A stretch of DNA of 40,061 nucleotides from positions 1 to 40,061 of the forward strand of contig JAUHVL010000030.1 in assembly GCA_030425045.1 (NCBI GenBank). The letters run 5' to 3'. Within the stretch, counting starts at the first letter, position 1. The number at the start of each line of letters is the position of its first letter. The position numbers were made by a program, and so were the translations under genes. The notes beneath the pieces were generated by a model. It had not been told where the DNA came from, did not search any database, and saw nothing but the letters and a program-made list of their open reading frames with translations. Origin of the DNA: a bacterium (GTDB taxonomy: Bacteria > Bdellovibrionota > Bacteriovoracia > Bacteriovoracales > Bacteriovoracaceae). This document shows positions 3,556 through 34,329 of this stretch, in pieces.

Positions 3556-3571
3556 TGGCATGGTATTTGCT
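3556..3571 (+). promoter_or_regulatory. sigma-54 (-24/-12) promoter
   Basis: TGGCATG-N4-TTGCT matches the RpoN consensus TGGCACG-N4-TTGCW closely. GG at 3557-3558 and GC at 3569-3570 stand 12 bp apart, as required. Transcription would start near 3582, leaving a leader of about 27 nt before the ATG at 3609. Two sigma-54 activator-like genes lie downstream in the same window (10861 and 15395), but a link to this promoter is only inference. Confidence 0.8.
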
Positions 3572-10860: not shown

Positions 10861-12423
10861 TTGAAAGATTTCGATTTTTTATTCTCTAGCTTATCTGATG
10901 AAAACCAAGGTGATAAACCACCACAAAACCTTCCTGTACTTTATCTTGTAGAAGATGATCAAGTACTTGGAAAAATAATTCAAAAGTATCTAAAAAAGAG
11001 TTTAGGTTTAGAAGTGGTTTACTATGCTAATCCTACAGAATGTTTAGAGTTCTTAGATAGAAAGTATCTGGGAATCGAGCTAGAAAAAAGAACGCCTTTT
11101 TGTTTAATTTCAGACATCAGTTTTTCTGAAGGTTCAACAGATGGCCTACTCTTAATCGATTTATTAAGAGAAAAGGGTCATCACTTTGTTTCTCTTGTTA
11201 TGACAGGCTTTGCTTCAATTGAAACAGCTATCATGGCAACCAGAAAAGGTGTTTTTCATTACTTAACAAAACCATTTGAATTAGAGGTTCTAAGTGATCT
11301 TGTTGTTAAGGCTTTGACTTTGAAGTTAGGCTATACAGAAGATCAAATTAGAGTTGCCGTCAGTGAGAAAGTTGCAGACTCGAGTTCTCAGGGAAGTAAA
11401 TACAGTCGTTGGGCACTTGAAATCCCTACTGAAAAAGATATTTTTTGTGGAATGATTGGTCGTTCTCAGAAAATGAAAAATGTTTTTGACCGTATTAAGA
11501 AAGTATCAAATTCAGATTCAACAATTATGATTACCGGTGAGTCTGGTACAGGAAAAGAGTTGGTGGCCAAGGCCATTCATAATCTTTCTGCTCGAAAATC
11601 TAATGAGCTTGTTTCAGTGAACTGTGGAGCTATTCCTAGTGAGCTTCTTGAAAGTGAGTTGTTTGGTCACGTAAGAGGTGCTTTTACTGGTGCTATTTCT
11701 GATCGTAAAGGTCGTTTTGAAATGGCAGATAAGGGTAGTATTTTTCTTGATGAAATTGGAGATATGCCACTTTTATTACAAGTGAAACTCTTAAGAGTTT
11801 TACAAAGTAGAGAGATCGAGAGAGTTGGTGGTCGTGGGGTGATCCCCATTGATACGAGAATTATCACAGCGACACATAGAAATTTAGAGGCTTCAGTTTC
11901 TGAAGGTAACTTTAGAGAAGATCTTTTTTATCGATTAAATGTTATTCCTGTAAAACTTCCTTCTTTAAGAGAGCGTAAGGAAGATATACCTCTATTGATT
12001 TCATATTTTCTCTCAAGGTTTATTAGTGCCGATGGAAGAAATAATATTGAATTAGATGATGATGTTTTAGAAACTCTCATTAACTATAGTTGGCCTGGTA
12101 ACGTAAGAGAACTTGAAAACGTGATCGAAAGGTTGGTTATTTTAAAAGGTGGTAATATCGTTAAGATGAACGATTTACCGTCAAAATTTCTTGATGAAAA
12201 AAGTTCAAATATCGACCCTTATTCTGAACTCATTACACTTCCTGAAAATGGAATTGATTTAAAAGCAACCTTGTCAGATATTGAGAACTCTTTGATCTTA
12301 CAGGCACTAACAGTGACTGAGGGTAATAAAAACAGGGCCTCAAAGCTTTTAAGCATGAATAGGACGACTCTTATTGAAAAAATGAAAAAGAAGGGTTTAA
12401 TGAGTCCAGAAGTCACTCTTTAG
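10861..12423 (+). CDS. sigma-54-dependent response regulator (NtrC/FlrC family)
   Basis: A 520-residue transcription activator. The receiver domain (about residues 20-155) has the acidic pocket LVEDD, the phosphoacceptor aspartate at about residue 85 (ISDISFSEG), the threonine switch VMTGFAS and KPFE. The central AAA+ domain has Walker A GESGTGKE, an intact GAFTGA sigma-54 contact loop at residues 273-278, Walker B IFLDEIGD and arginine fingers in FREDLFYRLN. The C-terminal Fis-type helix-turn-helix is NRASKLLSMNRTTLIEKMKKKG. Start TTG 10861 is chosen because GGAGGCGAC immediately precedes it. The position upstream of the flagellar cluster suggests an FlrC-like flagellar role; no histidine kinase is adjacent. 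It is also a candidate activator of the sigma-54 promoter at 3556. Confidence 0.93.
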   Translation: MKDFDFLFSSLSDENQGDKPPQNLPVLYLVEDDQVLGKIIQKYLKKSLGLEVVYYANPTECLEFLDRKYLGIELEKRTPFCLISDISFSEGSTDGLLLIDLLREKGHHFVSLVMTGFASIETAIMATRKGVFHYLTKPFELEVLSDLVVKALTLKLGYTEDQIRVAVSEKVADSSSQGSKYSRWALEIPTEKDIFCGMIGRSQKMKNVFDRIKKVSNSDSTIMITGESGTGKELVAKAIHNLSARKSNELVSVNCGAIPSELLESELFGHVRGAFTGAISDRKGRFEMADKGSIFLDEIGDMPLLLQVKLLRVLQSREIERVGGRGVIPIDTRIITATHRNLEASVSEGNFREDLFYRLNVIPVKLPSLRERKEDIPLLISYFLSRFISADGRNNIELDDDVLETLINYSWPGNVRELENVIERLVILKGGNIVKMNDLPSKFLDEKSSNIDPYSELITLPENGIDLKATLSDIENSLILQALTVTEGNKNRASKLLSMNRTTLIEKMKKKGLMSPEVTL

Positions 12424-12606
12424 GTTCTTTCTAAAAAGTGTCAAATTTTCACCGGAAAAAAAATCCACGAAGAAAAATTTTCCTTCAAAAAAATCAAATC
12501 TAGGATACAATGAGTTAAGCCAAATTTCTCAGGATGAGTTATTTGGATATAGAAAGAGCAGGTTAGCTTTTTTTATCAACGTCTTATGAGACAGGAAGTT
12601 TCATCG

Positions 12607-15354
12607 ATGGAAAAAATTTTTCATATCAAATTTTTGACATTCCTACTGTTGATATCTTTTTCATTCGAAATTTTTTCTGCTGGAATTATTAATCAAGAAA
12701 AGAACGATACCTATCTCCGTTGGACGATTTTTACTGATAAAGAAAATATTGTCATGGAGAAGGAGAGTGGAAAAATTTATCTTAAAACTCTCAATTCTGA
12801 ATTCTTTGAAAATGCAAGAGAGTCGTTTACGAATTTAAGACCAGCGAAAAGTTATATAAAGAACGTTCGTTTTATCCCACCAAGTGATCGTAATAATGTA
12901 TCGCAAATTGAAATTAGTCTTGCTGATGACGAAGTAGAACTATTTAGTTTTTATAAACAAAGAGAAAAGAAATATATTTTTGATTTTTGGAGAGATGAGC
13001 AAAAACCTGATAATAAAATAAGTCAGATTGAAAAGGCAAAGAAGAGGCTCTCAAATAAAAAGAAAGATATTAAGACCACACCAGCAAAAAGCAAGACAGC
13101 TAAAGTTAGAACACCAGCGGAAATAGATCCAAAGAAAGTACCGATGTTTTTGGATAACAAGTCGAAAGTTTCAAAAAGAAAAAAACCAGCATTAAAAGAT
13201 AGAAAAAGGCCAGAGAAGCATATTAGTAGCGATGGTTATCAAGACTTTCGCTATGGAGCATCTTTTATTTGGGATTATGAAGGTTTTGGTCCCAAGCTTG
13301 ATAGAACAATCGATATTATTACAAAGACTCCGGAGTATTTTTATCCAATAGAAAATAGAGATATCTCAAAAGGAGCGGAAGAGTCGCACCTTCAGTTAAG
13401 TATTAATCTCTATAGAAAGAAAAAGTATGGACTTATGTATAAGTCAATCACACTTTTTGATGAGAAATATCCAGATAGTAAATTAACTCATGTAAATGAA
13501 TATTTAAAAGTAAATGCAATTATTAGAAACCACATCGCAGAGGGAAATAGAGAACCTCTTAAAATGTCTATTAATATGCTAAGAAGTTTAGCTGAAAGTA
13601 GCCCTGACTATGACTTAGCAAAGGCCATTATTAAATATTTAATTTCTTATTATGTCGGCAATAAAGAATACGTTGAGGTCCTTAAACAAGCCAAAAGATT
13701 CTACGTGTTAAGTAAAGAAAACTATGATTATGAAGAAAGCTCCTATGCTGCTGAAGCGATCTTTTATAGTTTATCAATGATGAATCAGGTTGAAAGAGTC
13801 GAAGAAGTTTTAAGAGAAAAGACAATTGCTAAGCTCTTACCTCGCCAATTGCAGCTAGCTTATAAAATATTTGTATCTCATCGTTTTGGGGATATGGAAA
13901 AAACAATTAGAAACTATGAAACGAACAAGAAGAGCTTAGTTGGAAAGGTCTACCCTTCGATTCTTTTTAATGTTGGTGAAGCTTATTTTAGAACGGGAAA
14001 ATTCGAGCAGTCAGTGACAATGTTTGATCGTTTCTTATCTCATTATTCGTATCATAAGAAGTCTGACTTTGCTCGATTAAGATTGGCTCTTGCTTATGAA
14101 ATTATGGATAAAAATAAAAAGCAAACGATTCTTCTGTATAAAAATGCAATTAATAGATCAACCGATAAAAATATTCTTTACGAAGCAAAGTTTAGATTAG
14201 CCGCTCTGAGAAGTGTCAGAAAGGTAAACCCTGATAAGTCTGATATGGAAACGAGAATATTATTAACCGTTGGCCCAAAAGAAGTTTTACCTGAAAACCT
14301 AAAGAAACTACTTTGGATTGTAAGGTTGAGATCTTTTATTAGAGATAAACAATATAGAGATGCTCTTCGGTATTTAAGAGCTGTTCCTCTAACAGCATTG
14401 AAACCCTCTGAAAGAAGAGTCTTTGAGGCTGATGGGTCAGAAATAATTTATGGAATTATTCACGAGCATTATTTAAAAGGTGAGTACTCTAATATCGTTA
14501 GAGTATGGAATCTGTATAAAGATAGTTATATCGCAAAAGTGGCCAATGATCCCTATATTAACTTTGTTGTAGGACAGTCGTATTTAAAGCTTGGTCTCTA
14601 TAAAGGTTTTGAAAAGCAGTACGCGAGATTCAAAAAATTAAATGATCAGCCAATTAAAACATTCCCTTATTGGGTGGATCGTGTTGAGCTTGGCAATAAA
14701 ACGGCCATCCTTAAAGAGTTAAGTGTTATTAAGAATATTAGACTTGAAAATTGGGATCTGGCTTATCGTGAGCTGGAGCATCTTAAAAAAGCGAAGATCG
14801 CAAAAGATAGATATGCATACTATATTGGTATTATTCACTTCCAAAAGAAGTCTTATAAGGATGCGATGAATAGCTTTGAGGACTTTTTAAGTTCTCAAAA
14901 AAGAGATATGGAGTTGGATCCTAACGATTTAGCAAATCTTATTCGTTACTACACGGATTCAATCTATGAGCTTGGATTACTTGATAAATATCAGGAAGTA
15001 AGTAAAGCGATCTTGGCCGATACGGAAAGGTTCTCACAAGATAATAAGTACTTAAAAGATGTGCTTGAAAGACTTGAGTATATGAATATCGAAATACTGG
15101 CAGGGAAGTCGGATAAGAGTTCTTACATGGTTGTCGAAAATAAAATTAACCAATTCTTACAAAAATATAAAGAACCAAAAAATTATGGAAGAATTAGATA
15201 CTTGCTTGGACATTCATATGTAAAAAATATGAAGTTAGATGAAGGGCAAGAAGTCTTACAACAACTTTTGGAGGATGAAAAGATTTCAGACTACATAAAG
15301 GAGTTAGCTAAAAGTGAGTTATCACTCATAGCAATTAAAAAACGTACACTTTAA
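12607..15354 (+). CDS. large periplasmic protein: AMIN-like beta domain, basic linker and TPR-type superhelix
   Basis: 915 residues. A signal peptide (MEKIFHIKFLTFLLLISFSFEIFSA) is followed by a beta-rich domain to about residue 115, whose last strands (VSQIEISLADDEVELFSFY...YIFDFW) resemble AMIN domains. A lysine-rich linker covers about 120-205. From about residue 250 to the end there are repeated helical pairs with TPR spacing, for example LFNVGEAYFRTGKFEQSVTMFDRFL and YIGIIHFQKKSYKDAMNSFEDFL. Start ATG 12607 is preferred over 12586 because GGAAG stands 8 nt before it. It lies 40 bp before the activator-like gene and the flagellar operon. The layout recalls the periplasmic motor protein PflA of Campylobacter (beta domain, linker, TPR superhelix), but homology is not shown. 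A general Tol-Pal/YbgF-like wall role is the alternative. Confidence 0.75.
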   Translation: MEKIFHIKFLTFLLLISFSFEIFSAGIINQEKNDTYLRWTIFTDKENIVMEKESGKIYLKTLNSEFFENARESFTNLRPAKSYIKNVRFIPPSDRNNVSQIEISLADDEVELFSFYKQREKKYIFDFWRDEQKPDNKISQIEKAKKRLSNKKKDIKTTPAKSKTAKVRTPAEIDPKKVPMFLDNKSKVSKRKKPALKDRKRPEKHISSDGYQDFRYGASFIWDYEGFGPKLDRTIDIITKTPEYFYPIENRDISKGAEESHLQLSINLYRKKKYGLMYKSITLFDEKYPDSKLTHVNEYLKVNAIIRNHIAEGNREPLKMSINMLRSLAESSPDYDLAKAIIKYLISYYVGNKEYVEVLKQAKRFYVLSKENYDYEESSYAAEAIFYSLSMMNQVERVEEVLREKTIAKLLPRQLQLAYKIFVSHRFGDMEKTIRNYETNKKSLVGKVYPSILFNVGEAYFRTGKFEQSVTMFDRFLSHYSYHKKSDFARLRLALAYEIMDKNKKQTILLYKNAINRSTDKNILYEAKFRLAALRSVRKVNPDKSDMETRILLTVGPKEVLPENLKKLLWIVRLRSFIRDKQYRDALRYLRAVPLTALKPSERRVFEADGSEIIYGIIHEHYLKGEYSNIVRVWNLYKDSYIAKVANDPYINFVVGQSYLKLGLYKGFEKQYARFKKLNDQPIKTFPYWVDRVELGNKTAILKELSVIKNIRLENWDLAYRELEHLKKAKIAKDRYAYYIGIIHFQKKSYKDAMNSFEDFLSSQKRDMELDPNDLANLIRYYTDSIYELGLLDKYQEVSKAILADTERFSQDNKYLKDVLERLEYMNIEILAGKSDKSSYMVVENKINQFLQKYKEPKNYGRIRYLLGHSYVKNMKLDEGQEVLQQLLEDEKISDYIKELAKSELSLIAIKKRTL

Positions 15355-15394
15355 ACCTAATAACCCATGAGGGGTGTTATTGACAGGAGGTCAA

Positions 15395-16312
15395 ATGGAA
15401 GGGGTAAAAGTAGATTATTTCGGGAAAGATCCCAGAGTTCAAAAAGCGATTAATCTATCGCGAAATTTGTCGGTGATGAAAGCGCCAGTACTCATTACTG
15501 GTGAAGTTGGAGTTGGAAAAAGATCATTAGGGATCTATATCCATGAGAATTCTCCTAGAAATGGACAGCCGCTTGAAATTGTTGATTGTTCACAGCCAAG
15601 TGAAGATGTGATTAATCATATTTTAGGTTATCGTGATGATGAAACAGGTAAGTTCTTTAAAGGTGCTCTTGAAAAAGCTAATGGTGGATCTGTTATCTTT
15701 GCAAATATTGAAGGACTTGATGAAGAGTTTCAAAAAAGATTACATACAATCCTCGGTGAATTAGAAGATTATGATATTGATATTCGAGTCATTGCGACAA
15801 CAACGAAAAACTTATCTAAGTTAGTAGGTAGTGGGCGATTTTACCGTGGCCTCTATACAGTATTTTCAAATAATAATATCTCATTACCTCCTCTAAGAGA
15901 AAGAACATCTGACCTTAAGTATTTAGCTCAGAACTTTGTTGACAGTCGTTTTACGATCAATGATGAAGCGATGGATAAAATTCTTTCACATTACTGGACT
16001 CATAATATTCATGAACTAAAAACGGTTCTTGAAAGTAGTATTGAAAACTGTGAGGGCGAGACTCTAAAAGAAGAGGATGTTGAAATTGGTGAAAAGAGAT
16101 CTGTGAACTTCTCAACTGATGAAGATGGTGAAGGGATACGTTTGATGTCTTTGAAAGAAGCGGAAAGACTGCTTATTAAAAAAGCACTCATTCATACCAG
16201 TGAAAACAGAACTCAAGCAGCTAAGATTCTTGGAGTATCGATAAGAACTTTAAGAAATAAAATTAACGAGTATAGAAGCTCTGGAAAGTCGTACTTTGTT
16301 AATTTGAGGTAA
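15395..16312 (+). CDS. degenerate sigma-54 activator-like AAA+ protein with Fis-type DNA-binding domain
   Basis: 305 residues with no receiver domain: the AAA+ domain begins almost at the N-terminus. Walker A is intact (GEVGVGKR, residues 36-43). The Walker B acidic pair is replaced (FLDEI of relatives reads FANIE, with Ala103 and Asn104), the GAFTGA loop is deleted (ILGYRDDETGKFFKGAL), and one arginine of the usual FREDLFYRL segment is lost (FYRGLYTVF). The C-terminal Fis helix-turn-helix is intact (NRTQAAKILGVSIRTLRNKINEY). It therefore probably binds DNA but cannot remodel sigma-54 holoenzyme in the normal way. It may act as a repressor, a partner of another activator, or a sigma-70 regulator as TyrR and HupR do. 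ATG 15395 follows AGGAGG. The gene ends 2 bp before flgB, so it is in the flagellar operon. Confidence 0.88.
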   Translation: MEGVKVDYFGKDPRVQKAINLSRNLSVMKAPVLITGEVGVGKRSLGIYIHENSPRNGQPLEIVDCSQPSEDVINHILGYRDDETGKFFKGALEKANGGSVIFANIEGLDEEFQKRLHTILGELEDYDIDIRVIATTTKNLSKLVGSGRFYRGLYTVFSNNNISLPPLRERTSDLKYLAQNFVDSRFTINDEAMDKILSHYWTHNIHELKTVLESSIENCEGETLKEEDVEIGEKRSVNFSTDEDGEGIRLMSLKEAERLLIKKALIHTSENRTQAAKILGVSIRTLRNKINEYRSSGKSYFVNLR

Positions 16313-16314
16313 GT

Positions 16315-16722
16315 ATGGATGTAAATGACAAGACATTAAAAGCTCTTGCAACAGCAATTAAGTTTAGAGAGATGAGACAAAAAATCATCAGCTCTAATAT
16401 CGCTAACGCGAATACTCCTGGCTTTAAGGCCAAGAGACTTGATTTTGAAAAAGCATTAGCTCGCGCCATCAATGTTGATGGAAACTTGTCAATGAAAGCG
16501 CAGGATCCAGATCATTTTGATGTCGGAAATGGCGGCTTTGATAATTTGGAACCAGATATTTATGAGGAGCCAAGTGATATTGTTTCTTCAGATGGGAATA
16601 CTGTTGATATAGAGGCAGAGATTTCCAGAGAAGCTGAAAATGCAATTATGCATGAAGCAATGGTGAAGATGCTCAACAAGAAACTTGCTTTAAAGAAATA
16701 TCTTATCCAAAGTGAACGATAG
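16315..16722 (+). CDS. flgB: flagellar basal-body rod protein FlgB
   Basis: Proximal rod subunit, exported through the flagellar type III system. 135 residues with the rod-family N-terminal signature (SSNIANANTPGFKAKRLDFEKAL) and the C-terminal helix that packs in the rod (EAMVKMLNKKLALKKYLIQSE). The length is normal. ATG 16315 follows GAGGTAAGT, two bases after the activator-like gene, and 8 bp separate it from flgC. The first structural gene of the operon. Confidence 0.95.
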   Translation: MDVNDKTLKALATAIKFREMRQKIISSNIANANTPGFKAKRLDFEKALARAINVDGNLSMKAQDPDHFDVGNGGFDNLEPDIYEEPSDIVSSDGNTVDIEAEISREAENAIMHEAMVKMLNKKLALKKYLIQSER

Positions 16723-16730
16723 GAGGATAA

Positions 16731-17168
16731 ATGGATTTATTAACCAGTTTAAAAATTAGCTCATCAGCATTAAACGCTAATAAGAAAAAGATTGGTGCTA
16801 TAAACTCAAATATTGCTAATGCTCAAACGACAAGAACGGCAGAAGGTGGACCCTATCGAAGAAAAGAAGTTGTCTTTGGATCTGAACCAGCGAGAGAAAC
16901 CTTTGGTGATATTTTAGAAGGAGAACTAGCAGAGCATGCTCAAACGGTGCACGCGACAGAAGTGATCTCCGATAATAAGCCACCGGTTCTTAAATACGAC
17001 CCCACTCATCCAGATGCTAATGAACAGGGATATGTTGCGTACCCTGATATTAATGTCATGGTTGAAATGGCCGATCTCATCTCTACCCAAAGAAGTAGTG
17101 AAGCAAATATTAATGCAATGAACGTAACTAAAAGAATGGCATTAAAAGCATTAGAGATTGGTAACTAA
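16731..17168 (+). CDS. flgC: flagellar basal-body rod protein FlgC
   Basis: Proximal rod subunit. 145 residues with LKISSSALNANKKKIGAINSNIANAQTTRTAEGGPYRRKEVVF at the N-terminus and the family C-terminal motif YVAYPDINVMVEMADLISTQRSSEANINAMNVTKRMALKALEIGN-type sequence. ATG follows AGGAGGATAA, one of the best ribosome-binding sites here. It is placed as usual between flgB and fliE. Confidence 0.96.
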   Translation: MDLLTSLKISSSALNANKKKIGAINSNIANAQTTRTAEGGPYRRKEVVFGSEPARETFGDILEGELAEHAQTVHATEVISDNKPPVLKYDPTHPDANEQGYVAYPDINVMVEMADLISTQRSSEANINAMNVTKRMALKALEIGN

Positions 17169-17178
17169 GGAATAGGAA

Positions 17179-17547
17179 ATGGCCATACAAACAACATCTA
17201 ATTTACAAAGTATCTTAAAGAACTACGATGCAAAGTCTTGGACTAAAAGCTCTAATCTTAATGAAGTTGAACCCCTCAAGTTTGATATTAAGACACCCCT
17301 CGATAAAATTGGAGCTCCAAAAGAGAATTTGACCTTCGGTGAAGTTTTGGCAAAGAGTATTGGTGATGTAAATAATTTGCAAAAAGAAGCAAATATGGCG
17401 ATTGAAAAATTGGCGACAGGGAAAAGTAAAAACTTATCAGAGACGATGCTCGCGATAGAGAGAGCAGACTTAGCTTTCAAACAAATGAACCAAATTAGGT
17501 TAAAGGTTGTGGAAGCATACAGAGAGATAATGCGCATGCAGGTTTAA
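17179..17547 (+). CDS. fliE: flagellar hook-basal body complex protein FliE
   Basis: Joins the MS ring to the rod and is among the first exported substrates. 122 residues, with the conserved C-terminal part: FGEVLAKSIGDVNNLQKEAN, LATGKSKNLSETMLAIERADLAFKQMNQIRLKVVEAYREIMRMQV. The first 45 residues are a variable lead. ATG 17179 follows AAGGAATAGGAA. A 38-bp gap to fliF holds a short CCTG...CAGG stem and a strong AGGAGGG site for fliF. Confidence 0.95.
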   Translation: MAIQTTSNLQSILKNYDAKSWTKSSNLNEVEPLKFDIKTPLDKIGAPKENLTFGEVLAKSIGDVNNLQKEANMAIEKLATGKSKNLSETMLAIERADLAFKQMNQIRLKVVEAYREIMRMQV

Positions 17548-17585
17548 TGACCTGATCGTTAGTCCAGGCAACTAGGAGGGTTACC

Positions 17586-19274
17586 TTGGAAGATTTTATT
17601 GAAAAGGTGTATCGGAACTTTAAAGACTTCTTTATGAGTCTCGATCACAACAAGAAAATGGGTATGATTGCAGTAACGGTTTTTATTGCAATGATGTTTG
17701 TCGTTGTTGTGATATGGGCCTCGAAAACAAGATACGAAACTCTTTATACCGATTTGAATAGAGAAGACTCTAAAAAGATTGCCGTCTTACTTGAAGAAAA
17801 TAAAATTCCCTATCAAATGTCTAATGACGGTAAAGTTGTTCAGATTCCTCAAGATATGATTAATCAATGGAGACTCAAAATTGCCATGTTAGGTGTAGAT
17901 TTTAGTGGGTCTGTTGGTTACGAAGTTTTTGATAAACAATCATTTGGGACCACGTCATTTGTACAAAAAGTAAATAAGCAAAGAGCTCTTGAAGGAGAGC
18001 TTGTAAAAACGATCAGGCATATAAAAGGTGTTAAAAGAGCTAGAGTTCACTTGGCCATTCCTGAATCAAGTCCTTTTGTCTCGGAGAAAAAACCACCGAC
18101 AGCGTCTGTGGTTATTGAGCTTGATCGAGGTGTTGAGCTGACAACAGGAGAAATAAAAGGGATTGCAAAATTGGTGAGCTCGACCGTGGCGGGCATGAGA
18201 ACTGAAGATGTTGTGATTCTCGATAATAGAGGTAAGAAACTTTCTGAAAATCATGGTGATGAGATGACGGCCCATACTGCGAACCGTGTTGCCCTTGAAC
18301 AGAAAATGAACCGCCGTTACGAGCAACAAATTGAAGAGATATTATCCAAAGTTGTCGGGGCGGGAAAAGTTGTGGCGAAGGTTGCCATTAACTTGGACTT
18401 TACTCAGTCAATAACAACAAAAACAAATTTTGATCAAGAAAATAAGGCCGTCGTGTCTGAAGTGATCAACTCACAAAAGTTAAATGGTAAAAGACCATCT
18501 CCACAAGGAATTACGGGAGCAAGAAGTAACCTGCCTGGAGAAAGTCCACAGCCGGGAATTCCTGAAACAACGAATAATGTAGATAAGGCATTAACGACAA
18601 AAAATTACAACGTTCCTTCTACTGTGACGAGATCAAAAAAGCCAACGGCAACGGTTAAAAATATTACAGCAGCAGTGATGGTTGATGGTAAGCAAGTGCC
18701 TATGCTGGATGCCACAGGAAAACCAGTGTTAGATGAAAATGGACAGCAGAAAATGCAGTATGAGCCATGGAGTGAAGCAGATCTTGCGAATTTCCAAGCG
18801 ATCATTTCTTCAACAATCGGAGTGAATGATAGAAGAGGTGATAAGATCACGATCAAAAATATGGAATTTGTTCAGGAAGATTTAAGAGCAATAGAAGCTC
18901 TTGAGAGAGAAAAGCAAAATAGAGAACTTATTAAGAACCTCTTTAAGTATTTTGTGGTTGGTTTCTCTATAACACTATTCTTCTTCCTCGTGGTAAGACC
19001 TTTTGTTCAATGGGTTACAGATAATACAGTTGAAACAGTTGAGGATTTCTTGCCTAAAACATTAGAGGAACTTGAAAAAGTTCAGGCAAACCAGAAACTT
19101 CCTGGTTTAGAAGATGCTCTTCCTCAAATTGAAGAAAAACTCAATCCTGAGAAAATCGAAGGAAATATGTTGAGAGAGAAAATTATATCTCTTGTTGAGA
19201 GTAACCCTGCTAAGGCAGCGCAGGTTATTCACGAAATGATTCACACGAGTGAGTCTAATAAAGAAATTGCTTAA
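17586..19274 (+). CDS. fliF: flagellar MS-ring protein FliF
   Basis: Inner-membrane ring that anchors the rotor and export gate. 562 residues, normal length. The first transmembrane helix is near residues 24-46 (GMIAVTVFIAMMFVVVVIW). The ring-building motifs follow (ETLYTDLNREDSKKIAVLLEENKIPYQ, RALEGELVKTIRHIKGVKRARVHLAIPE, PTASVVIEL). A long periplasmic loop rich in P, T and N precedes the second helix near 455-475 (FVVGFSITLFFFLVVRPFV). The C-terminal tail ends in AAQVIHEMIHTSE, the FliG-binding end. The start is TTG, fixed by AGGAGGG just upstream. Confidence 0.97.
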   Translation: MEDFIEKVYRNFKDFFMSLDHNKKMGMIAVTVFIAMMFVVVVIWASKTRYETLYTDLNREDSKKIAVLLEENKIPYQMSNDGKVVQIPQDMINQWRLKIAMLGVDFSGSVGYEVFDKQSFGTTSFVQKVNKQRALEGELVKTIRHIKGVKRARVHLAIPESSPFVSEKKPPTASVVIELDRGVELTTGEIKGIAKLVSSTVAGMRTEDVVILDNRGKKLSENHGDEMTAHTANRVALEQKMNRRYEQQIEEILSKVVGAGKVVAKVAINLDFTQSITTKTNFDQENKAVVSEVINSQKLNGKRPSPQGITGARSNLPGESPQPGIPETTNNVDKALTTKNYNVPSTVTRSKKPTATVKNITAAVMVDGKQVPMLDATGKPVLDENGQQKMQYEPWSEADLANFQAIISSTIGVNDRRGDKITIKNMEFVQEDLRAIEALEREKQNRELIKNLFKYFVVGFSITLFFFLVVRPFVQWVTDNTVETVEDFLPKTLEELEKVQANQKLPGLEDALPQIEEKLNPEKIEGNMLREKIISLVESNPAKAAQVIHEMIHTSESNKEIA

Positions 19275-19291
19275 GGCATAAGGAGTCCATT

Positions 19292-20326
19292 GTGGCAGCT
19301 AGTGATTTAGATCCAGATTTAGAATACAGTTTATTATCGGGACAAGATAAATCCGGTATTCTTTTAAGTTCACTCGGTGTTGAAACAACCCAGCTCATTT
19401 TCAGTTACATGAGAGATAACGATGTAAAGAGAATGATCAATGTGATGTCGAATTTAAAGAAAGCTCCTATCTGGATGATTAAAAGAGTTCTCGAAGAATT
19501 TTACTCACAACTCAACGAAGAAGCTGACTTACTCTTTTCTGACAACAAAGGAAGAGATTTTATTGTTAATGCTCTTGGTGAAGAAAGAGCGAAACAACTT
19601 CTCGGTCAGATTGTCGAGGTTGGTGCCTCCAATACGCTTGAATCTCTTGAACTGGTGGATACAAGAACATTGGCAAACTTTCTTATTAATGAACATCCGC
19701 AGACGATTGCTCTCATTATTGCTCACCTAACGGCAGAGAGAAAAGTGGATTGTTTGAGAAGGATGCCAGAGGGACTTCAGGCCGAAGTTGTACTTAGGGT
19801 AGCGAACTTAGATTATGTTTCACCTGAACTTATCGCACAACTTGATGATGTTCTTAAAACAGAACTATCGACACTTGGATCGATCGATATTAATCAGCTT
19901 GGTGGAGTGGAGCCAATTGCAGATATGCTTAACCTTATGGATAAAAACTCTGAGAAAAACGTTATGTCTCGAGTTGAGGAAAAAGATCCTGAACTTGCAG
20001 AAGAAATTAGAAAACTTATGTTTGTTTTTGAGGATATGGTTCATATCGATGATAGTGGTATTCAAAACCTTCTTAAAGAAGTTGATCAGCAGAAACTTGT
20101 TGTCGCTCTTAAGACAGCGAATGAAGAAATCAAGGCGAAATTATTTAAAAATATGTCTAATCGAGCCGCTCAGATGCTAATGGAAGATCTTGAGGCACTT
20201 GGACCAACGAAACTATCTGATGTTGAAAAAGCACAGAGTGAAATTGTCCAAAAAGCTAAGGATCTTGAATCACAAGGTAAGCTATTCATCTCTAGAGGTG
20301 GCGCTGATAGTGACGCTCTAGTTTAA
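19292..20326 (+). CDS. fliG: flagellar motor switch protein FliG
   Basis: Rotor protein that transmits stator torque and binds FliF. 344 residues. The N-terminal FliF-binding part is SGQDKSGILLSSLGVETTQLIFSYM. The middle domain has the EHPQTIALIIAHL signature. The C-terminal torque domain has MFVFEDMVHIDDSGIQNLLKEVDQQKLVVALKTANEEIKAKLFKNMSNRAAQMLMEDLEALGP-type sequence with the charged torque residues. Start GTG 19292 follows AAGGAGTCCATT. The conserved FliF-FliG-FliH order is kept. Confidence 0.97.
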   Translation: MAASDLDPDLEYSLLSGQDKSGILLSSLGVETTQLIFSYMRDNDVKRMINVMSNLKKAPIWMIKRVLEEFYSQLNEEADLLFSDNKGRDFIVNALGEERAKQLLGQIVEVGASNTLESLELVDTRTLANFLINEHPQTIALIIAHLTAERKVDCLRRMPEGLQAEVVLRVANLDYVSPELIAQLDDVLKTELSTLGSIDINQLGGVEPIADMLNLMDKNSEKNVMSRVEEKDPELAEEIRKLMFVFEDMVHIDDSGIQNLLKEVDQQKLVVALKTANEEIKAKLFKNMSNRAAQMLMEDLEALGPTKLSDVEKAQSEIVQKAKDLESQGKLFISRGGADSDALV

Positions 20327-20348
20327 GAGATACTATTAAGGAGTAATT

Positions 20349-21338
20349 TTGAAAGATTTACAAAATATTTTAAAAGATAAGGTCACAAGTTACTCCTTTG
20401 ATACCTTTGATGACAGTGTCATCAAGCCAGTTGGCGAAGAGGAAATCATTGACCTTGATTTAGAGCAATCATTAGATCTTGTGGATGTAGATGAAGAGCT
20501 TGAAGCTGAAATTTTAAGTTTAGAAAAAAGTATTGCGAAAAACAGTGAATTTATTATTTCTCCTATTGTTAAAGAGCATAGAGGCTTTAATAAACAAGAA
20601 TTAGATGAAAAAGAAAGGCGAATTAATAATGAAGTTGAACGACGAATAGAGGTTATTGGAAATAAGGCTTACCGAAAAGGTTATCAGGAAGGACAAGAGC
20701 AAGCGAGAGAAGAAGTTTTTAAACAAACGAGAGCCGCTACAGAAGAAAAGTTAACAACTCTCTCTTCAATTATTTCAGAAGCACTAGAAAATGAAGCGGA
20801 AGTTTTTAATCAGCAAAAGCAAACTCTTTATAAACTTGTTAATAACTTAGTTAAATGGATCACATTACGAGAGTTAAAAAATGATGGTGACTATATTGAA
20901 AGACTCTGTGAGAAATTAATCAGAGAGTTACAAGTTAAGAGTAATATTTTGGTAAAGGTCGACTCCTCGAATTTTGATAAAATGCCTGAAGTTCTTGATC
21001 ATCTGAACCAAAAACTTGGTGAAATTGAAAATGTAAGAGTGGAAGTGGATTATGAAATTGAAGGACCAGGTATCATCATCGAAAGTCAAAATGGAATCAT
21101 TAATGGCACTTTAAAGGAGCAATTCAATAGCTTGGATAAACTGTTTAGAAGTGTTGGTCTAGAAAACGACGAGCATTTCGATGTCAATGCGTTTTTCGCG
21201 GGAGACTATGAGAAGGTTGAAAAGCCTAAAATTGTTGAAGAAAGTAATCCCTTGTTGGGAGAAGAAGAAATATTAGATGACTTAATTGCGAAAGCTGAAA
21301 CAGAAGAAACTGATAGTGAAAGTGATGACGAGGAGTAA
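20349..21338 (+). CDS. fliH: flagellar export ATPase regulator FliH
   Basis: Peripheral stalk of the export apparatus, which dimerises and holds FliI. 329 residues, longer than the usual 220-260. The N-terminus is extended and acidic (VGEEEIIDLDLEQSLDLVDVDEELEAEILSLE). The centre is a coiled coil with the YRKGYQEGQEQAREE type segment found in FliH/HrpE/YscL proteins. The C-terminal domain contains KLVNNLVKWITLRELK and a VEVDYEIEGPGIIIES strand pair. An acidic tail (about 45 residues) ends the protein. TTG start after AAGGAGTAATT. The position between fliG and fliI supports the call. Confidence 0.9.
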   Translation: MKDLQNILKDKVTSYSFDTFDDSVIKPVGEEEIIDLDLEQSLDLVDVDEELEAEILSLEKSIAKNSEFIISPIVKEHRGFNKQELDEKERRINNEVERRIEVIGNKAYRKGYQEGQEQAREEVFKQTRAATEEKLTTLSSIISEALENEAEVFNQQKQTLYKLVNNLVKWITLRELKNDGDYIERLCEKLIRELQVKSNILVKVDSSNFDKMPEVLDHLNQKLGEIENVRVEVDYEIEGPGIIIESQNGIINGTLKEQFNSLDKLFRSVGLENDEHFDVNAFFAGDYEKVEKPKIVEESNPLLGEEEILDDLIAKAETEETDSESDDEE

Positions 21339-21340
21339 GC

Positions 21341-22708
21341 TTGGATATTGCTGATAAAGAATTAGATTTATTTAGAATTCATCGGGCGTATGAACATAAG
21401 TCTCCTTATCAAAGAATTGGAAAGATCATTTCAAGTCAGGGATCAACTTATGAAATCAATTTAGCTCAGGCAATTATTGGAAGTACTGTCGAGTTTGTAA
21501 CAGAGATTGGGACACGTAGTTTTGGTGAGGTTGTTGCGATTAGAGATAATCGGTGTTTGGCCATGCCCTACGATGAAATTCCCGGTATGAATAGTGAAAC
21601 GAGAGTATATCTTCACGATCTTTCTAATATGTTAACGGTATCAGAAGAGATGCTCGGAAGAGTTGTCGATTTTATGGGGAACCCTATCGATAATAAAGGA
21701 CCGATTGAAAATATTGGTGAGCCTATGAGTATTTTTGGTGAATCAATTAATCCTTTAGATCGACCTCCGATAAGAGAGTCGTTGGATACAGGTATTCATG
21801 CTGTGAATACATTTATGACAGTTGGAAAAGGGCAACGACTTGCCATCATGGCGGGATCCGGTGTTGGTAAGTCTGTGACTCTTGGGATGATGGCACAAAA
21901 TACAAAAGCAGATATCAACGTTATTGCCTTGATTGGGGAAAGGGGCCGAGAGGTCCGTGAATTTATTGAACGAGATCTTGGTGAAGAAGGATTAAAACGT
22001 TCGATCGTAGTCGTGGCAACATCAGATCAATCTCCTCTTATAAGAACGAAGGCCGTTTATACCGCTAATACCATTGCAGAATTTTTTAGAAATCAAGGAC
22101 GAGATGTTCTTTTGATGATGGATTCCGTTACCAGATATGCCATGGCCATGAGAGAAATTGGCCTAGGGGCCGGAGAGCCTCCTGGACAAAAAGGTTATAC
22201 TCCTAGCGTCTTTTCGAAGTTACCACAAATCTTAGAGAGAGCGGGACGAACACAAAATGGTGGAAGTATCACTGGGCTCTATACTGTTCTCGTTGAAGGT
22301 GATGATATGGATGAGCCAATTGCCGATGCTATTCGAGCTATTGCAGATGGACATATTGTATTAAGTCGAGAGCTTGCTTCTCGAAATCAATTTCCAGCTA
22401 TTGATATTCTTCAATCGATTTCAAGGGTCATGAATAGTGTTGTTAGCCGTGAGCATAGAATTGTCGCTTCACACTTAAGAGATTTACTTGCAGCTTATAG
22501 AACCAACGAAGACTTGATTAATGTCGGGGCTTATGCTCGAGGATCAAACGTAAAGATTGATAAAGCAATTGCTATATATGATGACCTTATGAGTTTGATG
22601 AAGCAGGAACAAGACCTTAGTGAGTTCTATAGCATTGAAGAGTTATATGATCGAATTGTCGAGCTAGCGAGAAAAGCAGAAAGTGTTACTGTAGGAGAGG
22701 CTAGCTAA
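21341..22708 (+). CDS. fliI: flagellum-specific export ATPase FliI
   Basis: Hexameric cytoplasmic ATPase of the flagellar type III export system, an F1-beta relative. 455 residues with Walker A GSGVGKS at residues 172-178, GERGREVREF, Walker B DVLLMMDSVTRYAMAMREI and the family-specific GEPPGQKGYTPSVFSKLPQILERAGR. Start TTG follows GAGGAGTAAGC, and only 2 bp separate it from the fliH stop. The stop codon overlaps the fliJ start by one base (TAATG), so translation is coupled. Confidence 0.97.
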   Translation: MDIADKELDLFRIHRAYEHKSPYQRIGKIISSQGSTYEINLAQAIIGSTVEFVTEIGTRSFGEVVAIRDNRCLAMPYDEIPGMNSETRVYLHDLSNMLTVSEEMLGRVVDFMGNPIDNKGPIENIGEPMSIFGESINPLDRPPIRESLDTGIHAVNTFMTVGKGQRLAIMAGSGVGKSVTLGMMAQNTKADINVIALIGERGREVREFIERDLGEEGLKRSIVVVATSDQSPLIRTKAVYTANTIAEFFRNQGRDVLLMMDSVTRYAMAMREIGLGAGEPPGQKGYTPSVFSKLPQILERAGRTQNGGSITGLYTVLVEGDDMDEPIADAIRAIADGHIVLSRELASRNQFPAIDILQSISRVMNSVVSREHRIVASHLRDLLAAYRTNEDLINVGAYARGSNVKIDKAIAIYDDLMSLMKQEQDLSEFYSIEELYDRIVELARKAESVTVGEAS

Positions 22709-23163
22709 TGGGACAGAAATTTAAATTTAAGCTTGAAGGTTTGCTGAAGTTAAGAAAATTTCGTGAAGAAGAAATAAAAGTAGAGTTGGGAAAACTTATT
22801 TCTGAAGAACAAATGATCCTTGATCGCTTAGATGAAATCGATCGTGAAGTACAGGTTGGTTATGATATGCAATCAGAAGCGTTTCATGATCAGAGTAAAG
22901 GAAAGGATGCATATTTTTACCCTTATTTTTTTCAAGGAAAGAGAAAGGATAAAGAGCGATGTGAGACAATGCTCTACTCAACGAGAAAAAAGATTGAAGA
23001 AAAGAGAAAGGAGCTTGCTGAGGCAATGGGTAATGTAAAGATTATGGAAAACTTGAAAGATAAAAAAGTTGAAGAATTTAAAAAAGAGAAAAATAAAAAA
23101 GAATTTGCTGACCAAGAAGAAAATATGATTATGAATTTCTCCAAGAAAGAGAGACGAGCATGA
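22708..23163 (+). CDS. fliJ: flagellar export protein FliJ
   Basis: A 151-residue coiled-coil protein in the FliJ slot: FKFKLEGLLKLRKFREEEIKVELGKL at the N-terminus and highly charged heptad-like sequence throughout. FliJ acts as the central stalk in the export ATPase and as an escort for chaperones. The gene starts on the last base of the fliI stop and its own stop overlaps the next start (ATGA). Assignment rests on the opening motif, length, coiled coil and position, since FliJ sequences diverge fast. Confidence 0.87.
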   Translation: MGQKFKFKLEGLLKLRKFREEEIKVELGKLISEEQMILDRLDEIDREVQVGYDMQSEAFHDQSKGKDAYFYPYFFQGKRKDKERCETMLYSTRKKIEEKRKELAEAMGNVKIMENLKDKKVEEFKKEKNKKEFADQEENMIMNFSKKERRA

Positions 23164-23708
23164 AAAAATTTATATTTGTCATTTTAGGATTTTCACTTTT
23201 GACTGTCTTTGCTGAAGAAGAAAAGGTTACAAAAGACGAAAAAGTCTACACTCAAAAAGAGTTTGATGAAAAGCTTGAAAAGTTGTTGTTTGAAAAACTT
23301 AAACGGTTTGGCTCTGAAAATATTGTTAACTTATCTCAAGAGTTACACCAAAAAGAAAAAGCTCTCGCTGATAGAGAAAATGAAATTAAACAAAGAGAAG
23401 AGCAAGTTGCTGTTGTTGAAAATGAGTTGACTAAAAAGATCAAGGAACTTCAAGTTCAAAAAGATAAAATATTAGCTTGTCTCGATCAAAACGATGGTAA
23501 AGAAAAAAAGAGAATTGATCATATGGTTGAAGCCGTTTCTGGAATGAGGCCTCAAAGTGCAGCAGATGTACTCTCTGTACAAGATCCAGATATTAGTGTG
23601 AAAATTTTAGATCGGCTTCCCGCTTCTAAGGTATCGAAAATATTTAACTCAATGAAAAAGGAAATATCTGCCCGACTTCAAAAACAGTACATGAATATGA
23701 AAAAATAG
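23160..23708 (+). CDS. MotE-like flagellar protein (signal peptide, coiled coil, MgtE-N-like end)
   Basis: 182 residues. A signal peptide or N-terminal helix (MKKFIFVILGFSLLTVFA), a long coiled coil (about 55-115, QKEKALADRENEIKQREEQVAVVENELTKKI type) and a C-terminal MgtE-N-like helical module: VEAVSGMRPQSAADVLSVQDPDISVKILDRLPASKVSKIFNSM. MotE in alpha-proteobacteria and FlbB in spirochaetes share this layout and link the stator to motor assembly in the periplasm. The start overlaps the fliJ stop by 4 bp. A function in motor or stator assembly is expected from family and position. Confidence 0.78.
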   Translation: MKKFIFVILGFSLLTVFAEEEKVTKDEKVYTQKEFDEKLEKLLFEKLKRFGSENIVNLSQELHQKEKALADRENEIKQREEQVAVVENELTKKIKELQVQKDKILACLDQNDGKEKKRIDHMVEAVSGMRPQSAADVLSVQDPDISVKILDRLPASKVSKIFNSMKKEISARLQKQYMNMKK

Positions 23709-23745
23709 CTTATGGCGAAAAGCGTCATTGATTTATAGGAATTGA

Positions 23746-25077
23746 ATGCAAGTTAAACCAGAATCTTCACATTTATTAGCAGGGCTTGGGGAAAGTACTC
23801 AAGGTGAAGGTCTCGCTAATTTAAAGATTGGCGGAGGAGAGCAAACTAGTGAGTTTGGAAGCCTCTTAGAGCAAGCTTCTGGTAAACTCATAAATGAAGA
23901 TGCTAATGAGTCTCTCCTTAACTTGATTACGTCAAAAGAAGTAGATGTTTCTAAAATGTCTGGTGATCTTTCAGAAGAAAAAATTATAAAAGCGGATGAA
24001 ATGGGAAAGATCATTAAAAATGATTCACCTCTTTCAGATGAAGAAATTAGTGAAAAGCTTAAAGTTTTTTCTACTGGTAATCCGCTAAAGACAGAGATGC
24101 CAGGTTTCCAGTCACACGAAAAGTTAACAAGCCCAGAGTTGCAGTCACAACTGGCAATGGAAAAAGGGAATGTTAAGAATGTTAAAAATATTAAATCTAA
24201 CGAATCTTTAGAGTTAAAAGATATTTTAAATAAAGAAACGGCTAAGTTAAATCCAGAGTTGAAAGAGCAGGCCATTCATCCACTGAAGAAAGTGAACTCT
24301 CAATCTTCAAGTGACTTTATTAGCCAGCTAAAAACAGCGCAATCTAAGAAAGTATCTGAGGCGAGTACTGAAGATTTAAAACTTGAAAATAAAAAGTCAC
24401 AAGTAAATCTTTATGGAAAGAAGCAGAATGATCTTAGTAAGAACTTAATTTCTTTAAAAGGAGAAATTGAGACTTCTGACTCTGCTTCTGTAAAGCCAAG
24501 TGAAAATAATTCTAATCAGAGTTTTGGAAATATGATTGAGCAAGCGGAGTTGAAGCTGGCGCCAAAAACATCTGCACCAAGACCTGTTTTAGATTTATCT
24601 AATATTGGAACTGAAAACAAAGTAGAACTGATTAATAAAATTAGTAATTATATTGAGCAATCGAATATCGCTAAAACCGAAAATGTCGATGTCTTAGTTC
24701 GTCATGAAGAACTAGGTACATTCCAAATTTCAGCAAAGAAAGGTCAAGTGAACCCTGACATGGTTGATTTGAAAATTAATACACTTTCTGAAAATGGAAG
24801 AAGTTTCTTTGTTGAAAATGAAGGTGAGTTATTAAAAGCATTAAATCAAAATGGTATAAAAGTTGCTGATTTAAAAGTTTCAAGTAGCAAAGACTTTATG
24901 GGGATGGCCGATATGAAAGGTCAAACTTCGGATCGATCTTTTGGAGAGAATTCTTCAAACCAAGGTAATTCTAGTAACCAAAGAAACTTTGGACAAAGCT
25001 CTTCTGGGAATGAAGATTCACAAAGAAGAAGAAACTTGTGGCAACAATTTAGTGAACATCAACAAGCTTACGCATAA
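23746..25077 (+). CDS. fliK: flagellar hook-length control protein FliK
   Basis: 443 residues. The first ~290 residues are low-complexity, rich in S, N, K, E and Q, as expected for the extended ruler part. The C-terminal hook-length domain reads VDVLVRHEELGTFQISAKKGQ...VDLKINTLSENGRSFFVENEGELLKALNQNGIKVADLKVS, the part that switches export specificity. The tail is a Gln/Asn/Ser-rich stretch. ATG 23746 follows AGGAATTGA. It sits directly upstream of flgD, the hook cap gene, as in many bacteria. Confidence 0.88.
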   Translation: MQVKPESSHLLAGLGESTQGEGLANLKIGGGEQTSEFGSLLEQASGKLINEDANESLLNLITSKEVDVSKMSGDLSEEKIIKADEMGKIIKNDSPLSDEEISEKLKVFSTGNPLKTEMPGFQSHEKLTSPELQSQLAMEKGNVKNVKNIKSNESLELKDILNKETAKLNPELKEQAIHPLKKVNSQSSSDFISQLKTAQSKKVSEASTEDLKLENKKSQVNLYGKKQNDLSKNLISLKGEIETSDSASVKPSENNSNQSFGNMIEQAELKLAPKTSAPRPVLDLSNIGTENKVELINKISNYIEQSNIAKTENVDVLVRHEELGTFQISAKKGQVNPDMVDLKINTLSENGRSFFVENEGELLKALNQNGIKVADLKVSSSKDFMGMADMKGQTSDRSFGENSSNQGNSSNQRNFGQSSSGNEDSQRRRNLWQQFSEHQQAYA

Positions 25078-25090
25078 GGAATAAGAAAGT

Positions 25091-25963
25091 ATGCCTGAAA
25101 TAGGTAACCCAAATGCAGCAAGAAATAGATTTCAAAATGTCAAAATGTCGACTAATGCGGCTTCAAAATTAGCGGCACAAAATACAAATAATTCAAATGC
25201 TCCTAAAGATATTGGCAAACAACTCAACAGAATTGCTGGTATCAGAGAAGAGTCACAGTTTGTTAAAGAAAAAGATCATAACAAAATGGATAAGAATGCT
25301 TTTCTTAAGCTCTTATCTAATCAGCTGGCCAACCAAGATCCTTTCAAGCCAGTCGATCAAAAGAAGTTTGCTTCTGACCTCGCTCAATTTTCTCAATTAG
25401 AGCAATTGACGAATATGAACTCTAAATTTGATAAAGCTTTTAATAAAGCTCCCGATCAGCATAAATTTTTAGGAGCTTCGCTGCTTGGAAAAACTGTTCT
25501 AACAGAAGGGACAAGTATAAAAGTTGATGAAGAGTCTTCGGTTGAAAATCTTCCCTTTTATTTAGATAAACCGGCCAAGAAGTTAATGGTGAGAATATTT
25601 GATTCATCAAATAATATGATTCAGCAAATAGATATTGACGGTATGGGAAAAGGAAATCAGTCTGTCATGTGGGATTTAAACTCTCTTGATGGAACGAAGG
25701 CGATGGAAGGAGAGTACCGTTTTCAAGTAACAGGTTGGGATGAAACTTTTAATCAGTTTAAAGGTCAGACCAGAGCAGAGGGACGTGTTACGGGAGTAGA
25801 GTTTGAGGGAGACGAAGTTTTACTCACAGTTGATGGCGGAAAAAAGATGTACTTACGAGATGTTCATAGTTTTAGTGATAAACCTCGCGCTGCGGCAAAA
25901 AACTCGCCATTGAAACAAATGGCCTCTCAGAAATATAATGAAATAAGCGAACAAGCTAGATAG
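25091..25963 (+). CDS. flgD: flagellar hook assembly (cap) protein FlgD
   Basis: Scaffold that caps the growing hook. 290 residues. The conserved N-terminal export and capping part is MDKNAFLKLLSNQLANQDPFKPVDQKKFASDLAQFSQLEQLTNMN, preceded by a variable ~65-residue lead. The C-terminal half holds the FlgD Ig-like fold (LMVRIFDSSNNMIQQIDIDGMGKGNQSVMWDLNSLDGTKAMEGEYRFQVTG type) and a tudor-like segment around VTGVEFEGDEVLLTVDGGKKMYLRDV. ATG 25091, with AAGGAATAAGAAAG before it. Confidence 0.95.
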   Translation: MPEIGNPNAARNRFQNVKMSTNAASKLAAQNTNNSNAPKDIGKQLNRIAGIREESQFVKEKDHNKMDKNAFLKLLSNQLANQDPFKPVDQKKFASDLAQFSQLEQLTNMNSKFDKAFNKAPDQHKFLGASLLGKTVLTEGTSIKVDEESSVENLPFYLDKPAKKLMVRIFDSSNNMIQQIDIDGMGKGNQSVMWDLNSLDGTKAMEGEYRFQVTGWDETFNQFKGQTRAEGRVTGVEFEGDEVLLTVDGGKKMYLRDVHSFSDKPRAAAKNSPLKQMASQKYNEISEQAR

Positions 25964-25970
25964 GAATAAA

Positions 25971-26381
25971 ATGGCTAACAACGGCAAAATTAATAATATG
26001 CTCATACCAAGTGTTTCGAAACTTCCGAAGCACGAAAAGGTGGATGTTAGCAATAAACTTCAGTCTGGTGAAACTTCTGATTTTAAGAAATTACTTCAAG
26101 ACAAAATTGGCTCTGTAAAAAATGATCACGGTATTAATTTAAGTGTTCATGCCGCTAAAAGACTGAGTGAAAGAAATCTCAGTTTAAATAATGAAGACTT
26201 TTTTAAGATTAAAGATGCAATCGGTAAGTTAAAAGAGAAGGGAGGACAAGACTCTCTTATTATAACAGATAAAGCCGCCTATATCGTTGACGTTAACAAT
26301 AATAAAATTGTGACGGCAATTGATAAAGGGAGCTTGTCTGAAAACGTGTTTACGAAAATTGATTCAACAGTAGTAGTCTAG
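25971..26381 (+). CDS. small flagellar-operon protein (TIGR02530-like)
   Basis: 136 residues. The conserved core INLSVHAAKRLSERNLSLNNEDFFKIKDAIGKLKEKGGQDSLIITDKAAYIVDVNNNKIVTAID resembles the 'flagellar operon protein' family usually found between flgD and flgE in Firmicutes and delta-type proteobacteria. The molecular role is not established; a hook-assembly or export-related role is likely by position. ATG 25971 follows AGGAATAAA, 7 bp after flgD. It is the last gene before the 128-bp flgE leader. Confidence 0.83.
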   Translation: MANNGKINNMLIPSVSKLPKHEKVDVSNKLQSGETSDFKKLLQDKIGSVKNDHGINLSVHAAKRLSERNLSLNNEDFFKIKDAIGKLKEKGGQDSLIITDKAAYIVDVNNNKIVTAIDKGSLSENVFTKIDSTVVV

Positions 26382-26457
26382 GGATAAAACAAGGCCGGTC
26401 CTAACGGAAGCCAACTTTCAATCTGTTCGATTAAAGTTCCCTATTCAAATCTACATC

Positions 26458-26485
26458 TGATAATTGGTAATCAGGATGATTATCA
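26458..26485. promoter_or_regulatory. inverted repeat in the flgE upstream region
   Basis: TGATAAT (26458-26464) and ATTATCA (26479-26485) form a perfect 7-bp inverted repeat with 14 bp between, 24 bp before the flgE ATG and upstream of its AAGGAGG site. It could be an operator or a leader stem setting flgE expression apart from the upstream genes. No convincing sigma-54 or sigma-28 promoter was found in the 128-bp gap (26382-26509). Confidence 0.4.
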
Positions 26486-26509
26486 AAGGTTAGTTCTAAG
26501 GAGGGAACG

Positions 26510-34274: not shown

Positions 34275-34329
34275 TCTGGCATTGATCTTGCTCTTTAAAG
34301 TATTAGTAACCTTGATTTGGGGAGATTTT

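Follow-up and report, generated by a model that had tools for sequence, protein, structure and literature searches.

An open reading frame on the forward strand at 15395..16312 of the window, the whole 40,061-nucleotide stretch of DNA analysed here, encodes a degenerate, receiverless bEBP of 305 aa, identified by its Pfam matches and by the conservation of its orthologues. On balance, this protein is likely to be an ATP-binding, non-hydrolysing DNA-binding regulator, formerly a sigma-54 activator, that would now act at promoters of sigma-70 type, probably that of its own operon. The operon begins, on the same strand, with a TPR-repeat protein gene at 12607..15354 (start probable), assigned from its open reading frame, Pfam and gene maps; the bEBP gene follows 40 bp after the TPR stop at 15354, and flagellar genes (flgB flgC fliE fliF fliG fliH fliI ... 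fliK flgD flgE) extend downstream over 16315..27790 (+). It is ahead of the TPR gene that the conserved promoter is found. An earlier note on this DNA had placed the bEBP gene first in the operon and proposed a feedback loop; the gene is in fact second. Feedback of the protein on its own operon is plausible.

Pfam recognises Sigma54_activat (7e-21), an AAA lid (residues 168–230) and HTH_8 (9e-10), the last a Fis-type HTH at residues 253–293, followed by a conserved C-terminal tail that ends in NLR. The predicted fold matches the AAA+ domains of NtrC1 and FlrC; the FlrC structures 6lua and 6luf rank with the best hits. As the earlier note had read from the sequence, Walker A (residues 36–42; GEVGVGKR) and the Fis domain are retained, and the GAFTGA loop, both Walker B acids and the receiver are missing. 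The GAFTGA position reads GYRDDETGKF and is shorter, the Walker B DE has become A103–N104, and Pfam finds no Response_reg match in the protein, whose reading frame opens just ahead of the AAA+ domain. The losses go further: the arginine-finger segment FREDLFYR is replaced by FYRGLYTV, so that both arginine fingers are gone, the sensor II Arg is H206, and the switch Asn (N64 of PspF) is D64. Measured against the bEBP class (PF00158), the protein thus has the homologous AAA+ domain with Walker A and lacks the loop that contacts sigma-54, the hydrolysis set of Walker B DE, arginine fingers and sensor II and, as far as its own operon is concerned, a -24/-12 target promoter. It scores 144 bits against the FlbD equivalog NF050807, far below the cut-off of 750. 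Judged from its sequence, the protein is unable to act as a canonical sigma-54 activator.

These losses are a fixed property of the window's own family (f1, Bacteriovoracaceae type), which comprises predatory bacteria. Across 89 distinct f1 orthologues, with pairwise identity down to 48%, the same residues are gone throughout (GAFTGA from every orthologue, the Walker B acids, both arginine fingers and sensor II), a conserved loss for which the earlier note had proposed to look. In the same 89 sequences, the GxGxGK of Walker A is invariant and nearly all HTH residues from 250 to 294 are unchanged, and the gene was found in 41 of 41 near-complete f1 genomes. For 18 close f1 pairs, dN/dS is 0.014–0.089 over the whole protein and 0.016–0.094 over the AAA+ part, ratios that are rough because dS is close to 1 or exceeds it in many of the comparisons. 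The low values in the AAA+ part, together with the invariant Walker A, indicate that the dead ATPase domain is actively maintained. The residues at positions 64 and 103–104 change together: N64 with DE in 48 of 48 intact relatives, D64 with xN in 86 of the 89 f1 rows. The Asn–Glu pair is the published 'glutamate switch' of bEBPs (PMC7175178), and the comparison of N64/DE with D64/N104 shows that it has been reciprocally exchanged.

The ancestral form of the protein is still visible elsewhere in the phylum. Profile searches and gene maps revealed the order TPR gene, receiverless bEBP, flgB, flgC, fliE, fliF, fliG in many Bdellovibrionota families, and outside f1 the bEBP at this orthologous locus is usually intact, with GAFTGA, DE, FREDLFYRL and GNVREL. 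The intact proteins (L151–L183 and others) resemble the f1 copy in position, sequence, neighbours, Walker A and HTH; they differ in having these four motifs and in standing in an operon behind a sigma-54 promoter. The earlier note held that orthologues with intact motifs would point to sequencing error or isolated decay. Such orthologues do occur, but they are confined to families of the phylum other than f1 and represent the ancestral state there, and error or isolated decay is ruled out by the 89 orthologues that share the losses and by the low dN/dS. In the tree, f1, f11, f19 and f22 each form one clade, and the intact and degenerate labels require five changes, at least four of them forced by supported branches, which implies that the motor was lost several times, about five. 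The lineage f11 is a second, independently degenerated one. GxGK and the recognition helix SIRTLRNK survive in all degenerate copies, and the set of catalytic parts lost varies by lineage. The protein descends from a receiverless sigma-54 activator of FlrC/FlbD type that is still intact at the same flagellar-operon place in most of the phylum. In the f1 ancestor it would have given up sigma-54 contact and ATP hydrolysis, retaining DNA binding through the Fis HTH and, presumably, ATP binding through Walker A.

The promoter of the operon mostly differs between the two states of the protein. An automatic scan of the region ahead of the TPR gene located TGGCAY-N6-TGCW in 38 of the 40 intact loci with usable sequence, and L177, where a broken TPR frame had misplaced the scan, raises the count to 39; the remaining locus, L180, has an intact bEBP, no sigma-54 box and carries TGCTACAAT instead. 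Ahead of the operon, the box was found in none of 70 f1 loci, where the best matrix score (8.9) was no better than that of shuffled sequence, and in none of five f11 loci. In 12 f1 loci, apparent boxes some 190 bp ahead of the bEBP fall within the TPR coding sequence and are probably conserved codons, and no convincing sigma-54 promoter emerged in or upstream of the f1 operon. No box precedes the downstream flagellar genes in intact or f1 loci, so the upstream box of the intact loci probably serves the whole operon; among the window's flagellar genes, the sole near-match is a weak one inside fliK, TGGTATAAAAGTTGCT. The degenerate copies of f19, f22 and G132 have kept the box (L163, L171, L172, L176, L186), and protein loss and promoter loss are therefore not strictly associated; together with the intact, boxless L180, these loci count against the main reading.

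Sigma-54 itself is widespread in these bacteria. RpoN was found in 26 of 27 genomes tested, degenerate lineages included, and TGGCAYN6TGCT occurs 23 times in the window's genome compared with three occurrences of a reversed control. Judged by eye from the sequences, these sites mostly precede genes for exported-looking proteins and not flagellar genes. Within the window, one box (3556–3571) lies ahead of an exported-looking protein gene that starts at about 3609, and another (34277–34292) precedes a region that includes a gene for a MarR-like regulator (34674). In genome G000 (L197, C69:3137-3152), a near-perfect sigma-54 promoter is followed by no open reading frame and, about 100 bases on, by a terminator-like hairpin with a T-run; it is a candidate source of a sigma-54-dependent small RNA. 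In f11 (L187–L189, L202, L203), a conserved GGCAGATTCTGCCACAATAGG ahead of the TPR gene resembles a sigma-54 box shortened by two bases (GG-N8-GC) and now holding an extended -10-like TGCCACAAT. It is possible that this element, alongside TGCTACAAT of L180, represents an intermediate in a promoter switch.

In place of the sigma-54 box, the f1 operon has a conserved sigma-70-like promoter. Its -10, TACAAT at 12506..12511 (+) in the conserved alignment, stands at a fixed distance from an upstream box (TTTTCCTT-N20-TANAAT), with identical spacing in 36 of 39 f1 loci, and a good -35 is absent. Relative to an inferred transcription start near 12518, the most conserved element, the dyad GAAGAAAAATTTTCCTTC at 12469..12486 (+), is centred at about -41, and a second dyad, GGAAAAAAAATCC at 12454..12466 (+), at about -58. 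A pair of dyads around -41 and -60, combined with a missing -35, is typical of activator-requiring sigma-70 promoters. The earlier note's suggestion of a sigma-70 role is favoured by the loss of the sigma-54 box from the f1 operon promoter; the protein may be an activator, a repressor, an ATP sensor or a hetero-oligomer partner. On the main reading, the sigma-54 promoter was swapped for a sigma-70-like one, at which the ATP-bound bEBP would probably sit on the two dyads through its HTH and activate (or repress) sigma-70 RNA polymerase, here and at other promoters, although the dyads could also be occupied by another factor. That the protein is instead a repressor, bound at flagellar or other promoters to block RNA polymerase in an oligomeric state governed by ATP binding, is a possibility we think unlikely yet worth weighing: the dyad near -41 overlaps the -35 position and could equally block polymerase, and GAFTGA-less bEBPs also repress, as Caulobacter NtrC does at sciP and hvyA, but the missing -35 better suits an activator-dependent promoter.

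Several other palindromes were considered as binding sites. GAAAC-N5-GTTTC proved to be a Shine-Dalgarno hairpin. GTCAA-N4-TTGAC, initially chosen by eye, ranked third in outgroups and ninth in f1 when 13,312 palindromes were enumerated blindly with up to two mismatches; it lies upstream of the dyads, is shared with the outgroups, and in the window is present as a degenerate copy (12440..12453, +) with only its left half intact. It corresponds to the published FleQ box (consensus GTCAAT-N2-ATTGAC; PMC10723142) and was rejected as a site of the degenerate bEBP in favour of the FleQ-type neighbour. GGCAA-N3-TTGCC occurs in outgroups and f1 as a possible common site, with scattered positions in the outgroups. 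A literature search on FlbD ftr sites gave no hit.

This neighbour, the full sigma-54 response regulator that the earlier note had seen 3 kb upstream of the degenerate bEBP, is borne out at 10861..12423 (+) as an intact FleQ-type protein with receiver, GAFTGA, Walker B DE and the HTH RTTLIEKMKKKG. Its best solved-structure match is FleQ, and orthologues bearing RTTLVEK occur across the phylum. It may be the operon's real activator in both states, which weighs against the main reading. The degenerate bEBP might alternatively join the rings of this regulator as a hetero-oligomer partner or anti-activator and damp or tune its ATPase and sigma-54 output. In many f1 loci, those of the fliG-less genus g33 among them, the regulator and the degenerate bEBP are close together (metK, regulator, TPR gene, degenerate bEBP); this and the strong purifying selection on the AAA+ part fit such a partnership. 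However, with its arginine fingers lost, the protein cannot serve the active site of an adjacent subunit as would be usual, it retains an invariant HTH of its own, a sigma-54 box is missing from the operon's own promoter, and f11 keeps a degenerate copy even though the signature RTTLVEK HTH of the FleQ-type orthologue is absent from its best matches. We regard this alternative as quite unlikely.

The protein has also persisted where part of the flagellar gene set is missing, which the earlier note had not foreseen. No fliG match was found in four f1 members (G032, G125, G167, G028; 91–99% complete), and the degenerate bEBP is retained in all four despite this, so its role is not purely flagellar. 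To go by fliG and local context, these bacteria seem to have lost their flagella. The g33 locus runs from metK through the FleQ-type regulator, a truncated TPR gene and the bEBP to an open reading frame with a partial YscJ/FliF match, and it retains similar promoter dyads, -10 and Shine-Dalgarno hairpin. At L311, L312 and L313 (g33) and at L316 (G028), the TPR gene, the degenerate bEBP and a divergent FliF-like frame are clustered, possibly as a relic of the flagellar operon that has found another use. Separately, the assembly at L090 (10226-11927, same genome as G009) shows two open frames in place of one fliF, through a stop or a sequencing error. A neutral relic, in which nothing but the HTH or the reading frame counts, for instance for translational coupling to flgB through the possible Shine-Dalgarno sequence at the bEBP's end, is very improbable given AAA+ dN/dS values of 0.02–0.09, the invariant Walker A and retention in the fliG-less lineages. 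That end, TTG AGG TAA (window 16304–16317, with conserved L304 and R305), stands where flgB starts three bases past the stop position of the bEBP.

The start of the bEBP gene carries a possible control element of a different kind. Its ATG is backed by a Shine-Dalgarno sequence, GACAGGAGGTC, which lies beside it in almost every f1 locus listed, and in these loci this sequence sits in the loop of a CsrA-site-like hairpin, GAC-AGGAG-GTC (15382..15392, +). The stem is GAC/GTC in f1 and one f19 locus versus GCC-A-AGGAG-GGC in 21 outgroup loci, a compensatory change. A similar CsrA-site-like hairpin, GAGAC-AGGAA-GTTTC (12588..12602, +), surrounds the Shine-Dalgarno sequence of the TPR gene, and its stems covary in relatives (AAGA/TCTT, GAAA/TTTC). 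The csrA gene was found in 9 of 9 genomes tested, and CsrA may set the level of the degenerate bEBP post-transcriptionally by acting on its translation at this hairpin.

Sigma-70 regulators without GAFTGA are already known, such as R. capsulatus NtrC and VspR. By analogy, the closest precedent is R. capsulatus NtrC, which activates sigma-70 promoters through ATP binding and not hydrolysis (PMC10274813). Like this protein, Caulobacter NtrC and Vibrio VspR, the f1 bEBP combines the bEBP fold and a Fis HTH with the absence of GAFTGA and a probable link to a sigma-70-type promoter; unlike them, it has also lost the receiver, both Walker B acids, both arginine fingers and sensor II, its switch pair is swapped, and its gene lies in a flagellar operon. 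With FlrC/FleR and FlbD the f1 protein shares the AAA+ fold and the flagellar operon position, and the HTH RTLRNK matches that of the intact phylum orthologues, but the f1 protein has no N-terminal receiver, sigma-54 contact loop or hydrolysis residues. FleQ of Pseudomonas, which is able to control sigma-70 promoters with no hydrolysis of ATP (PMC10723142), resembles the neighbour, and the degenerate bEBP differs from it by its HTH and missing receiver. No published description of a disarmed flagellar-operon bEBP was found in the literature searched. Its catalytic loss is unusually complete and conserved for a GAFTGA-less bEBP, and the novelty lies in a switch pair that is fixed in its reciprocally swapped state and in the link to promoter switching.

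A broader history can be proposed tentatively: once in the f1 ancestor, and separately elsewhere, a flagellar sigma-54 activator would have become a nucleotide-locked, non-hydrolysing, DNA-binding activator, its switch pair going from Asn–Glu to Asp–Asn and its promoter to a sigma-70 one with its dyads near -41, and in some lineages it would have outlived the flagellum, controlling a relic operon with a FliF-like protein. The intact, partly lost and fully lost loci form a natural series from an enhancer-dependent promoter with its AAA+ activator to an ordinary sigma-70 regulatory pair, in which ATP binding would be separated from hydrolysis in a selectively kept protein, and offer an entry point to flagellar control in predatory Bdellovibrionota.
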